DNA from: Lysobacteraceae bacterium
GTDB lineage: Bacteria > Pseudomonadota > Gammaproteobacteria > Xanthomonadales > Xanthomonadaceae
Assembly (NCBI GenBank): GCA_014879375.1
Contig: JACSSF010000040.1
Span: forward strand, 1-32,050
DNA length: 32,050 nucleotides
Direction: 5' to 3'
The notes beneath the pieces were generated by a model. It ran no database searches, was not told the origin of the DNA, and saw only the letters and a list, made by a program, of their open reading frames with translations. The first letter of the stretch is position 1; each line of letters starts with the position of its first letter. The position numbers were made by a program, and so were the translations under genes. This document shows, in pieces, positions 20,671 to 25,111 of this stretch.

Positions 20671-22710
20671 ATGTTGCTCCGCATCCTACGCCCGTGTTGC
20701 TGGATCGTGCTTGGCCTTGCGGCCTGCGGGCCGGCATGGGCGCGGACGGCCGAAGCACGCATCGCCCGCGTCACCACCCCCGTCGCCACGCTGGAAGGCG
20801 TGCAAGTGCAACTCGCATGGCCGGCGGATGCCGCGCAGGGACAATTGACGATGCACATGCGGCAGGTGCGTGCGGCAGACCTTGGTTACCGCTTCCGCGA
20901 CCTGCAATGGCGCTGTCCGCTGCGGCGCCTGCCGCGTTCGGGCTGGGCCTGCGATGGCGTGATCGATGCGCCGGGCGCATCGCCGTTGCGCTTGTCGGTT
21001 CGCCTCGACGATGCAAGCACCGAGGCCTCGCTCGCGCGCGGGGCGTCGCGACTGGCCCTGCAACGCAGCACCGATACGCCGGACCTCACCCGCATCGACC
21101 TTACCCGTGTGCCGGTGCAGTGGGCGGCGGCCCTGGCCGCGCAAGCCCGGCCCGGCGGCCGTTTCAGCCAAGGTCGGCTGGATGGCCGGCTGGCGATCAC
21201 CACGCCACGCGATGGTGCGGTGCACGTACAGGGGCCGCTGGCACTGGCAGGCGGCGCGCTGCAATCGGATGACGGCAGCATCGTCGGCGAAAACCTCGAC
21301 GCCCACCTCGACATCGATTACCGCACGCACGAAGGCAGCAGCCAACTCGCGCTGGATGGCACCTTGGGCGGCGAAGCGTTGTTCGGCGAAACCTACCTGG
21401 GTCTGGCCGGACAGCCGGTCCGGTTGGCGCTGCGCGGGGAGACATCGCCGGGGCAGGGCTGGCGTTTTCCGCTGATCGAATGGCGCGATGGCGCGACCTT
21501 GCACGCACATGGCAGTGCCCGCGTTGGCGCGGATAACGCGCTTGCCGCGCTCGACCTGACCCTGGATGGCGGCGACGCCGCGGGCCTGCGTGACCGCTAC
21601 CTCAGCGCCTTGCTGGGCAAGTTCGGGATGAGCGATGTCGAGATCAGCGGGCAGTGGAATGGCCGCATCCGTTTGGCGGACGGTCGCCTGCAGCAGGCTT
21701 CGGCGACCCTGCACGATGTGGACCTGCATGACCCGCGCGAGCGTTTCATCCTGCGCGGGCTGGATGGCACCGTCGCGTTTTCGGCCGGGGCGTCGATGGC
21801 ATCGGAATTGCGCTGGCGACAGGCGCGCATGTACGGCCTCGACTTCGGCGAAACCCGCTTGCCCTTCGACAGCCGCGATGGCGCGCTGATGTTGCAGGAG
21901 AACGCGGTCGTGCCGCTGTTCGGCGGACGCACGCTGATCCACGACCTGCGTATCGTGCCGCCGAATGATGCCGCCGGCCTGCAGATGGATTTCGGCCTGA
22001 CGCTTGAGGCGGTGGACGTGGGCGCGATGGCCAAGGCCTTCGGCCTGCCGGCGTTCCGCGGCGAATTGAACGGCGAGATCCCGCACGCGCGCTACGCCGA
22101 CGACCAGCTCACCTTCGATGGTGGCCTCAGCCTTGGTGTGTTCGATGGCGCGGTGCAGATCACCCGGCTGGCGATGGAGCGGCCGTTCGGGACCGCGCCG
22201 ACGCTTTCAGCCGACATCGACATCAGCGACGTCGACCTGCTGCGCCTGACCGAGGTGTTCGACTTCGGCAGCATCACCGGGCGGTTGGACGGCTACATCC
22301 ACGGATTGCGGCTGGTGGACTGGACGCCGGTGCGCTTCGACGCGGCCTTCGCTACCGATCGCAAGCCCGGCGTGCGCCAGCGCATCAGCCAGCGCGCGGT
22401 GCAGAACATCTCCAGCGTGGGTGATGCCAGCTTCGTGTCCAGCCTGCAGGGGCAGCTGATCGGCCTGTTCGACGACTTCGGCTACAGCCGCCTCGGCATC
22501 CGTTGCCAGCTGAACAACGAGGTATGCCTGATGGGCGGCCTGGGTGACCTCGACACCCCGCGTTCAGATTCGTCCGGCTTTACTATCGTGGAAGGTGCCG
22601 GCCTGCCGCGCCTGACCGTCGTCGGCTACAACCGCCGGGTCGACTGGCCTACGCTGGTGGAGCGGATGAAGGCGGTCGGCAAGGGCGACGTGAAGCCGGT
22701 CATCGATTGA
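20671..22710 (+). CDS. YdbH-like AsmA-type intermembrane phospholipid transport protein
   Basis: N-terminal signal/anchor; repetitive beta-rich AsmA-like body; C-terminal ITGRLDGYIHGLRLVDWTPVRFDAAFAT...RISQRAVQNISSVG...IVEGAGLPRLTVVGYNRRVDWPTLVERM, typical of the YdbH family. Confidence 0.85.
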   Translation: MLLRILRPCCWIVLGLAACGPAWARTAEARIARVTTPVATLEGVQVQLAWPADAAQGQLTMHMRQVRAADLGYRFRDLQWRCPLRRLPRSGWACDGVIDAPGASPLRLSVRLDDASTEASLARGASRLALQRSTDTPDLTRIDLTRVPVQWAAALAAQARPGGRFSQGRLDGRLAITTPRDGAVHVQGPLALAGGALQSDDGSIVGENLDAHLDIDYRTHEGSSQLALDGTLGGEALFGETYLGLAGQPVRLALRGETSPGQGWRFPLIEWRDGATLHAHGSARVGADNALAALDLTLDGGDAAGLRDRYLSALLGKFGMSDVEISGQWNGRIRLADGRLQQASATLHDVDLHDPRERFILRGLDGTVAFSAGASMASELRWRQARMYGLDFGETRLPFDSRDGALMLQENAVVPLFGGRTLIHDLRIVPPNDAAGLQMDFGLTLEAVDVGAMAKAFGLPAFRGELNGEIPHARYADDQLTFDGGLSLGVFDGAVQITRLAMERPFGTAPTLSADIDISDVDLLRLTEVFDFGSITGRLDGYIHGLRLVDWTPVRFDAAFATDRKPGVRQRISQRAVQNISSVGDASFVSSLQGQLIGLFDDFGYSRLGIRCQLNNEVCLMGGLGDLDTPRSDSSGFTIVEGAGLPRLTVVGYNRRVDWPTLVERMKAVGKGDVKPVID

Positions 22711-22729: not shown

Positions 22730-23326
22730 ATGGCGATGAAACACTGGATGCCGCTGCCTGCCGCGCTCGCGCTGGCTGCCTGCGTCACCATCAATGTCTA
22801 CTTCCCGGCCGCCGAGGCCAAGGAAGCGGCCAAGGAATTCGTCGACAAGGTGATCGGCGAGGACGGCCAGCCGGTGCCGCAAACGGAGAAATCCGGTGGC
22901 GGAATGGCGATGTTGCATCGTCGCGTGGACCTGTGGTCGGTGCTCGGCGTCGGTAGCGCCTACGCGCAGGCCACGCCCGACATCACCATCAACACCCCCG
23001 CCATCCGCGCGATCCAGTCCTCGATGGAGCAGCGTTTCAACAGCACGTTGCGCGCGGGTTTCGATGCCGGCGCACTCGGCTTCAGCAGCGATGGCCTGGT
23101 CACCGTGCGTGACGCCTCGAAGCTGCCGTTGAAGGATCGCGTGGCAATCAACAGTGCCGTCGCCGACGACAACCGCGACCGCAAGGCGCTCTACCGCGAA
23201 GTGGCGGTGGCCAATGGCCATCCCGAGTGGGAAGGGCAGATCCGCGACGTCTTCGCGCGCCAGTGGGTCGACAGCGCTCGCAGCGGCTGGTGGTATCAGT
23301 CGGGCGGCAGCTGGAAACAGAAATAA
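22730..23326 (+). CDS. Lipoprotein with YnbE-like N-terminus and YdbL/DUF1318-like C-terminus
   Basis: Lipobox LAAC at residues 15-18 followed by VTINVYFPAAEAKEAAKEFVDKVIGE; C-terminus IRAIQ...GALGFSSDGLVTVRDASKLPLKDR...DNRDRKALYREVAVANGHPEWEGQIRDVFARQWVDSARSGWWYQ resembles DUF1318; follows the ydbH homologue by 19 nt. Confidence 0.8.
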   Translation: MAMKHWMPLPAALALAACVTINVYFPAAEAKEAAKEFVDKVIGEDGQPVPQTEKSGGGMAMLHRRVDLWSVLGVGSAYAQATPDITINTPAIRAIQSSMEQRFNSTLRAGFDAGALGFSSDGLVTVRDASKLPLKDRVAINSAVADDNRDRKALYREVAVANGHPEWEGQIRDVFARQWVDSARSGWWYQSGGSWKQK

Positions 23327-23345: not shown

Positions 23346-23714
23346 ATGACCCTGACCAAGACCGCGGGCGCCTTCGCGCTTGGCACCATCATGTTTGCGA
23401 CCAGTGCAGCGCAGGCTGCAGTTGGTGCTGGCCAACAGGCCAGCCAGTGTTTTGTCATCTACAAGATGGCGGCGGCCGCGCCCGCCAATGCCGCGCACAA
23501 GGACGAGATCGCCAAGCTGGGCGGCCTGATGTCGCGCACCATGCAGGATGCGAAGGTGAGCAAGGCCCAGTTCGATGACTGGACCGGCGACTTGCTGACC
23601 CGCATCGGCTCCAAGGACAAGCCGAACAAGTCCGTGCTGGACAAGGAAATCCAGGCCTGCAACGCCTTCGCCAAGCAGCGGTACGCGCACTACACCGCGA
23701 CGGCAGGGAAATAG
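23346..23714 (+). CDS. Small secreted hypothetical protein
   Basis: Signal peptide MTLTKTAGAFALGTIMFATSAAQAA; two cysteines (SQCFVIYK, QACNAFAKQRY); GAGGAG SD at 23334-23339; co-directional with the ydbH-type operon and ahead of a terminator. Confidence 0.75.
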   Translation: MTLTKTAGAFALGTIMFATSAAQAAVGAGQQASQCFVIYKMAAAAPANAAHKDEIAKLGGLMSRTMQDAKVSKAQFDDWTGDLLTRIGSKDKPNKSVLDKEIQACNAFAKQRYAHYTATAGK

Positions 23715-23779: not shown

Positions 23780-25111
23780 GTGGCACGCATCGACCAGACG
23801 CCTTTCCAGGCCCACATCCTCGACCTCAGCCACGATGGCCGCGGCGTCGCCCGGCGCGAAGGCGGCACTCACGAGGGCAAGACCGTGTTCGTCTCCGGCG
23901 CGCTGCCGGGCGAGACGGTGATGGCGCAGCAGACCGCCCGTTCGCGCAGTTTCGATGAAGCGAAGACGCTGGAGGTGCTGGAAGCCTCGCCTGATCGCGT
24001 CACGCCGCGCTGCCCGCATTTCGGCATCTGCGGTGGCTGCGTGCTTCAGCATCTGGCCGAAGACAAGCAGATCCACGCCAAGCAGCGCGTGCTGATGGAA
24101 AACCTTGAGCGGATCGGCCACGTCACCCCGCAAGCGGTGTTGCCGCCGTTGGTGGATGCCGCCTGGGGCTATCGCCGCAAGGGGCGTTTCTCGGTGCGCC
24201 GGGTCGAGAAGAAGGACAAGACGCTGGTCGGGTTCCGCGAGCAGGACCCGCGTTTCGTGGCCGACATCGGCGAATGCCACACGGTGGTGCCGGAGATCGG
24301 CTTCAAGATCGCCGCGCTCTCCAGCCTGGTCGATTCGATGGATGCGCGGCGCGTGCTGCCGCAGATCGAGTTCATCGCAGGTGACGAGACACGCGCACTG
24401 GTCTTCCGCCACCTCGAACCCCTGTCCGAAGGTGACCTGCAGAAGCTGCGTGATTTCACCGCCGCCGAGGGCTTCGCCATCTACTTGCAGCCCAAGGGCC
24501 TGGATTCGGTGCACACGCTTGATGACGCGCCGCCGCCCAAGCTCTCGTTCCGCCTGGCGCCTTGGGACGTTGAATTGCTGTTCCGCCCGCTGGACTTCAT
24601 CCAGGTCAATGGCGGACTCAACGAAAAAATGATCGCGCGCACGTTGGAGTTGCTCGACGTGCAGCCCGGCGAGCGCGTGCTGGATCTGTTCTGCGGCCTC
24701 GGCAACTTCACCTTACCGCTCGCCCGCACCGCCGCGGAGGTGGTGGGTGTGGAGGGCGATGCGGGCCTCGTCGCGCGGGCGCGACAGAATGCCGAGCACA
24801 ACGGCCTCGCCAACGCCGAGTTCCACATGGCCGATCTCACCACCGACCTGCGCCAGGAGCGCTGGTTCAAGCAGGGCTTCGACAAGCTGCTGCTGGACCC
24901 GGCGCGCGCCGGTGCGCTGGAGGTGCTCAAGCAGATCCCGCTTGAGGGTATCCAGCGTATCGTCTACGTCAGCTGCCATCCGGGCTCATTGGCGCGCGAT
25001 GCCGGCTATCTGGTCAACGAGCGTGGCTGGAAGCTCAAGAGCGCAGGCGTAATGGACATGTTCCCGCACACCGCGCACGTGGAATCCATCGCGGTATTCG
25101 AACGGAGTTGA
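23780..25111 (+). CDS. rlmD: 23S rRNA (uracil(1939)-C(5))-methyltransferase RlmD
   Basis: TRAM domain ILDLSHDGRGVAR; Fe-S cysteines CPHFGICGGCVLQHL; SAM motif VLDLFCGLGNFTLPLA; LLLDPARAGA; IVYVSCHPGSLARD; GTG start. Confidence 0.96.
   Translation: MARIDQTPFQAHILDLSHDGRGVARREGGTHEGKTVFVSGALPGETVMAQQTARSRSFDEAKTLEVLEASPDRVTPRCPHFGICGGCVLQHLAEDKQIHAKQRVLMENLERIGHVTPQAVLPPLVDAAWGYRRKGRFSVRRVEKKDKTLVGFREQDPRFVADIGECHTVVPEIGFKIAALSSLVDSMDARRVLPQIEFIAGDETRALVFRHLEPLSEGDLQKLRDFTAAEGFAIYLQPKGLDSVHTLDDAPPPKLSFRLAPWDVELLFRPLDFIQVNGGLNEKMIARTLELLDVQPGERVLDLFCGLGNFTLPLARTAAEVVGVEGDAGLVARARQNAEHNGLANAEFHMADLTTDLRQERWFKQGFDKLLLDPARAGALEVLKQIPLEGIQRIVYVSCHPGSLARDAGYLVNERGWKLKSAGVMDMFPHTAHVESIAVFERS

Follow-up and report, generated by a model that had tools for sequence, protein, structure and literature searches.

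A lipoprotein and a YdbL-like DUF1318 protein encoded as one chain with a conserved internal A-x-A site in Lysobacterales

Results and Discussion

Organization of the locus

We analysed a window of 32,050 nucleotides, contig JACSSF010000040.1 of the Lysobacteraceae assembly GCA_014879375.1, whose nearest relative is Lysobacter tolerans. On the forward strand a long partner ORF ends 19 nt before a 198-aa ORF that joins a lipoprotein to a DUF1318 domain. The features are as follows.

20671–22710, + strand: partner gene, coding for a 679-aa, apparently exported, β-strand-rich protein that seems remotely YdbH/AsmA-like (upstream placement, hhalign, AF2 strands, N-termini)
22730–23326, + strand: fused lipoprotein–DUF1318 ORF, 198 aa, ATG start
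22730–22780, + strand: lipoprotein signal peptide, residues 1–17, lipobox LAAC (sequence; kept in all homologues)
22781–22858, + strand: mature lipoprotein part, residues 18–43, C-VTINVYFPAAEAKEAAKEFVDKVIG (conservation; a separate gene of ~60 aa in another order)
22859–22930, + strand: variable linker, residues 44–67, containing Met59 (22904) and Met61 (22910) (Cys-to-site length 54–96 aa among homologues)
22931–22966, + strand: signal-peptide-like segment, residues 68–79, core LWSVLGVG plus A77-Y78-A79 (site conservation, hydropathy)
22967–23323, + strand: YdbL-like DUF1318 part, residues 80–198, with Q80 as the predicted new N-terminus (PF07027 match, fold match)

These coordinates and landmarks agree with an earlier sequence-only reading of this DNA, which had placed the ORF, both internal methionines and the A77-Y78-A79/Q80 site correctly. 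The N-terminal lipoprotein signal is likewise as described there: the lipobox L15-A16-A17-C18, followed by VTINVYFPAAEAKEAAKEF, can be read directly in the sequence. From the N-terminus, the chain runs LAA-C18, VTINVYFPAAEAKEAAKEFVDKVIG, linker, LWSVLGVGSAYA, Q80 and DUF1318 domain, and the predicted cut between A79 and Q80 would correspond to the junction of nucleotides 22966 and 22967. Residues 18–43 form the most conserved block outside DUF1318. Among 51 non-redundant Lysobacterales homologues, residues 18–26 (CVTINVYFP), A77 and A79 are invariant; D67 is a polar residue that recurs in Lysobacteraceae, and Met59 and Met61 are not conserved. Since residue +2 is Val, the lipoprotein part is probably placed in the outer membrane.

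Fold of the DUF1318 part

The C-terminal part had been described as DUF1318-like, and residues 102–198 indeed match PF07027 (DUF1318; Pfam) with an E-value of 1.9e-17 and 64 bits, against a curated cut-off of 27. The AF2 model of the closest relative has the YdbL fold, matching the crystal structure of E. coli YdbL (28oj, 2026) with a TM score of 0.81 on the target and a probability of 1.00 (Foldseek). Searching solved structures by sequence for relatives of this part gave nothing useful, and a literature search on DUF1318 fusions found no report. In the fused ORF this part has neither an N-terminus nor an N-terminal signal peptide of its own, whereas its split relatives (see below) have one. 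A free periplasmic DUF1318 protein would be expected here only if the precursor is cut.

Comparison with the E. coli ydbH–ynbE–ydbL system

In E. coli, YnbE binds YdbH, and YdbL has been proposed to prevent self-assembly of YnbE. The ydbH–ynbE–ydbL system (PF11739, PF13617 and PF07027) shows the same order of parts, the YdbL fold and a T-I-N motif in its lipoprotein, but here the lipoprotein and DUF1318 form a single ORF. Published work describes YdbH as interacting or functioning with YnbE (PMC12977461, PMC11784454).

The proposed homology of the N-terminal part to YnbE did not hold up. The 34-residue PF13617 profile has no match in the fused protein at E up to 10, and the profile–profile score (hhalign, 9.9) lies within the range of 40 column-shuffled controls (up to 13.4). 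The lipoprotein block, VTINVYFPAAxAxxAA.., has the T-I-N motif in common with E. coli YnbE and is not homologous to it by profile. Its placement is nevertheless that of YnbE, a small lipoprotein between the partner protein and DUF1318, be it the first part of the ORF or a separate gene; the lipoprotein half is YnbE-like by position, not by sequence. The fusion interpretation also presumed that no separate ynbE exists elsewhere, and we found none in the window's genome, the assembly of which is 83% complete.

The upstream ORF had been called a YdbH homologue, which is sustained only as a suggested, remote kinship. PF11739, which recovers E. coli YdbH at 3e-291 as a control, matches neither the 679-aa partner nor anything else in the window's genome. 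A profile–profile comparison with YdbH (hhalign) gave probabilities of 91 (global) and 75 (local), with E-values of 1e-7 to 3e-5 when reckoned for a single comparison, which suggests that the two may be distantly related. Foldseek with part of the partner gave no significant match. The partner is shorter than YdbH (679 versus 879 aa), and its N-terminus resembles a signal peptide rather than an anchor: judged by eye, the stretch encoded by 20671–20760 reads as a cleavable signal peptide (..GPAWA/RT), and the N-termini of many partner homologues end in an A-x-A-like site, in contrast to the long anchors of YdbH-type proteins. The partner may therefore not be fixed in the inner membrane. Two AF2 runs modelled the partner C-terminus and the lipoprotein as one read-through chain (13 paired rows, with linker and signal peptide included), and in neither did VTINVYFP form a strand with the partner; in the first alignment, two of the rows (L074 and L080) were out-of-frame ORFs.

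The window's genome encodes YhdP and TamB as well, and so has further lipid-transfer bridges of this superfamily.

The fused form is standard over most of the sampled class

The full-length fused form is found in 28 of 41 sampled relatives and in the 80 top-ranking loci from the genome collection. At 107 Lysobacterales loci a lipobox leads into CVTINVYFP; 105 of these have a long partner ORF directly upstream, mostly at distances of −4 to +90 nt. A second match to the ORF in the window's own genome, on contig C40, contains a stop and was discarded as chance similarity.

In a sample of 276 genomes of the class, DUF1318 is present in 76 and YnbE (PF13617) in 27. Of the latter, 26 also have DUF1318, and where their loci were read a short YdbL-type ORF lies beside ynbE. 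YnbE is thus found in 26/26 genomes with the YdbL type and in 0/50 with the long type. The fused ORF is intact in 48 of the 49 loci that were read from the 50 YnbE-less DUF1318 genomes, and profile matches place partner homologues upstream in most of the long-type loci. Five genomes from other classes of the phylum carry the fused form as well (loci L257, L258, L260, L261 and L263). Across most of the sampled class the fused architecture is the norm rather than a peculiarity of one locus. The earlier view of a gene fusion therefore needs dividing: the two parts do occur elsewhere as adjacent genes behind the same partner, but their union is not particular to this genome.

Most DUF1318 genomes in the class sample use this version, which is missed by the Pfam families for YdbH and YnbE; since neither family recognises it, the system is probably undercounted. 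The route of phospholipids to the outer membrane is an open question, and ydbH–ynbE–ydbL is among the few known routes.

A natural split form

In one other order of the class, represented by genomes G405, G557 and G595, the same two parts are encoded by separate adjacent genes, an arrangement seen in 27 of 27 assessable loci with this DUF1318 type. The lipoprotein gene has about 60 codons and begins its mature part with CVTINIYFP (e.g., MKKCSSYASLILILAMFLSACVTINIYFPAAAAEKAADKIIEEVWQLDQEKNEEEQ); the DUF1318 protein carries a normal signal peptide whose final A-x-A is followed by NLEVNTPAI. The split loci (L271–L273, L278–L303 and L305) share the lipoprotein block and the DUF1318 subfamily with the fused ones, and L271–L273 have the same kind of partner ORF upstream. 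They differ in a stop codon and a new start between the parts, and where the fused chain has its weak internal segment they have a strong signal peptide of the ordinary kind. The split point coincides with the aligned A-x-A of the fused proteins. The internal stretch accordingly lies where a stand-alone DUF1318 protein has its signal peptide, as the sequence-only reading had supposed.

The split loci cluster together (SH-aLRT 90) among the fused proteins in a tree of DUF1318, corresponding to a single change of state. When rooted on distant YdbL, the tree makes the fused form ancestral and the split form derived. We regard this direction as uncertain, given a short alignment and the great length of the outgroup branch. 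Genomes that carry the two parts joined and genomes that carry them split constitute a natural matched experiment.

The internal A-x-A segment

In an alignment-based survey of 155 fused proteins, position −1 of the site is Ala in 155/155 and position −3 is Ala in 153/155 and Val in 2/155, so that the A/V-x-A of the signal peptidase I −3/−1 rule is present throughout. Position −2 is variable, and +1 is mostly Gln or Ala, while Pro does not figure among those listed. Within the class set, the entropy is 0.25 bits at −3 and 0 bits at −1, compared with 3–4 bits per position in the surrounding linker. AF2 gives a pLDDT below 50 across linker and site, and the invariance is therefore not explained by the predicted fold. 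Judged by its sequence, the −3/−1 pattern is that of a signal peptidase I site under selection.

The segment that precedes the site is a different matter, as it lacks the core able to enter the membrane that a signal peptidase I substrate has. Its maximum KD15 averages 0.92, whereas the split signal peptides average 2.20; the hydropathy of the weakest of 27 real signal peptides is reached by just 4 of the 48 class-set segments. A polar residue (Asp, Asn or Glu) is found at −9 in 37/48 class-set fused proteins and in 0/27 split signal peptides. The core is weakened mostly by a conserved Asp/Asn/Glu or by shortening; in Lysobacteraceae it is short.

Proposed function and alternative explanations

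We propose that the ORF encodes a precursor of two proteins, a small lipoprotein (C18-VTINVYFP..VIG) and a YdbL-like DUF1318 chaperone, that is most likely cut by signal peptidase I, and we put the probability of this reading at roughly one half (0.52). The chain would enter the periplasm through the lipoprotein signal and would then be cleaved at the invariant A-x-A/Q, releasing the same two mature proteins that the split order makes from two genes. Both would act for the neighbouring exported, β-rich YdbH/AsmA-like protein, much as YdbH is served by YnbE and YdbL in E. coli; we infer a function in lipid traffic. Selection would keep the cut site and blunt the core, as translocation would presumably stop at a normal core, with the DUF1318 part left behind in the cytoplasm.

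Several observations speak against this proposal. Signal peptidase I usually acts on a hydrophobic segment in the membrane, the N-terminal side of which is cytoplasmic, whereas here the N-terminal flank would already be periplasmic. A charged residue inside the core also makes a poor signal peptidase I substrate. Finally, the lipoprotein part has no YnbE homology, the partner is only remotely YdbH-like and seemingly has no membrane anchor, and the two AF2 runs on read-through chains did not pair VTINVYFP with it.

Internal processing by signal peptidase is known from flavivirus-type polyproteins and from LtaS in Gram-positives. There, too, an A-x-A site lies within a longer chain between two functional parts, but it follows a true transmembrane segment; the present segment appears too weak by comparison and would sit in a lipoprotein that has already been exported. 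We tentatively consider that the ORF encodes a bacterial polyprotein of this sort, in which a signal peptidase I cut at the weakened internal segment would free the chaperone in a 1:1 ratio, and that this arrangement is ancestral to this branch of DUF1318 proteins and was later split in one order, the internal segment there turning into a true signal peptide. The invariant internal A-x-A bears on whether Gram-negative bacteria make and cut an exported precursor of two proteins.

A somewhat less probable explanation is that the protein stays whole, with the lipoprotein tethered to its own YdbL-like chaperone and the segment with its P-x-A-x-A serving as a docking motif, for instance as an amphipathic helix lying against the partner or in its groove. 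The conserved Asp/Asn/Glu at −9, the prolines at −4/−5 and the hydrophobic pattern all depart from an ordinary signal peptide core and could suit binding, and a union of the two genes across most of the sampled class hints that tethering is of benefit. On the other hand, the free −2 between fixed −3 and −1 is a signal peptidase pattern, and the segment is disordered in the AF2 model with the partner. Moreover, the split order has a generic signal peptide before its A-x-A, without the polar residue, so that no docking motif survives there although the system does.

It is unlikely, in our view, that the locus encodes an independent periplasmic complex with nothing but the DUF1318 fold in common with YnbE, YdbL and YdbH. 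Such a complex would account for the missing PF13617 and PF11739 matches, for a lipoprotein block unrelated in sequence to YnbE and for a partner seemingly exported with a cleaved signal peptide. Against it stand the identical gene order (large β-rich protein, small lipoprotein, DUF1318), the fact that the long type and YnbE never occur together in the class sample, the remote similarity of the partner (hhalign probability 75–91) and the YdbL fold.

The sequence-only reading had raised a nested start at Met59 or Met61 that would give a free YdbL-like protein with a signal peptide beside the full lipoprotein. Both methionines precede HRRVD, which resembles a basic n-region, and the linker contains an ATG in 72 of 141 distinct homologues (ATG, GTG or TTG between block and site in 124/141). 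In the class set, by contrast, ATG is found in only 12/48 and any of the three codons in 36/48, while A-x-A is universal, and the hydrophobic core would make a weak signal peptide. Start codons are not conserved, which rules the nested start out as a general mechanism and makes it very improbable here. Least probable of all is that the stretch is passively left over from a gene fusion and now has no function. Its core is degenerate compared with real signal peptides, but a relic is hard to reconcile with an invariant A-x-A (−1 fixed and −3 either Ala or Val in 155 proteins, which represent dozens of families) inside a linker saturated with change. Should the split form be the derived one, no earlier signal peptide existed from which a relic could remain.

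Variant and neighbouring genes

The 49th class locus, L190 (genome G274, minus strand), has the CVTINVYFP and DUF1318 parts in different frames, owing either to a frameshift in the assembly or to a second, independent disruption of the fused gene. YnbE without a listed DUF1318 match occurs in G262, G413 and G551 (one family) and in G488 and G579 (one genus), and YnbE may work without YdbL in these groups.

Elsewhere in the phylum, L262 and L264–L267 encode a different DUF1318 lipoprotein, C-GG/GSGP..(V/T)(L/V)VDERTA(L/I)ENQ.LG.Y.., which has neither VTINVYFP nor an internal A-x-A segment. In the DUF1318 lipoprotein of L259 (G333) the N-terminal block is short and divergent (CATTQPQF), and a hydrophobic A-x-A segment is missing; this protein is possibly a secondarily shortened fused form.

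In the window, the lipoprotein gene is followed on the same strand by a 122-aa ORF (23346–23714) that has a signal peptide and no clear family match. The next ORF that we considered (23780–25111; 443 aa), which we take to encode the rRNA methyltransferase RlmD, has a downstream homologue in split loci as well (e.g., L273, L300 and L302).
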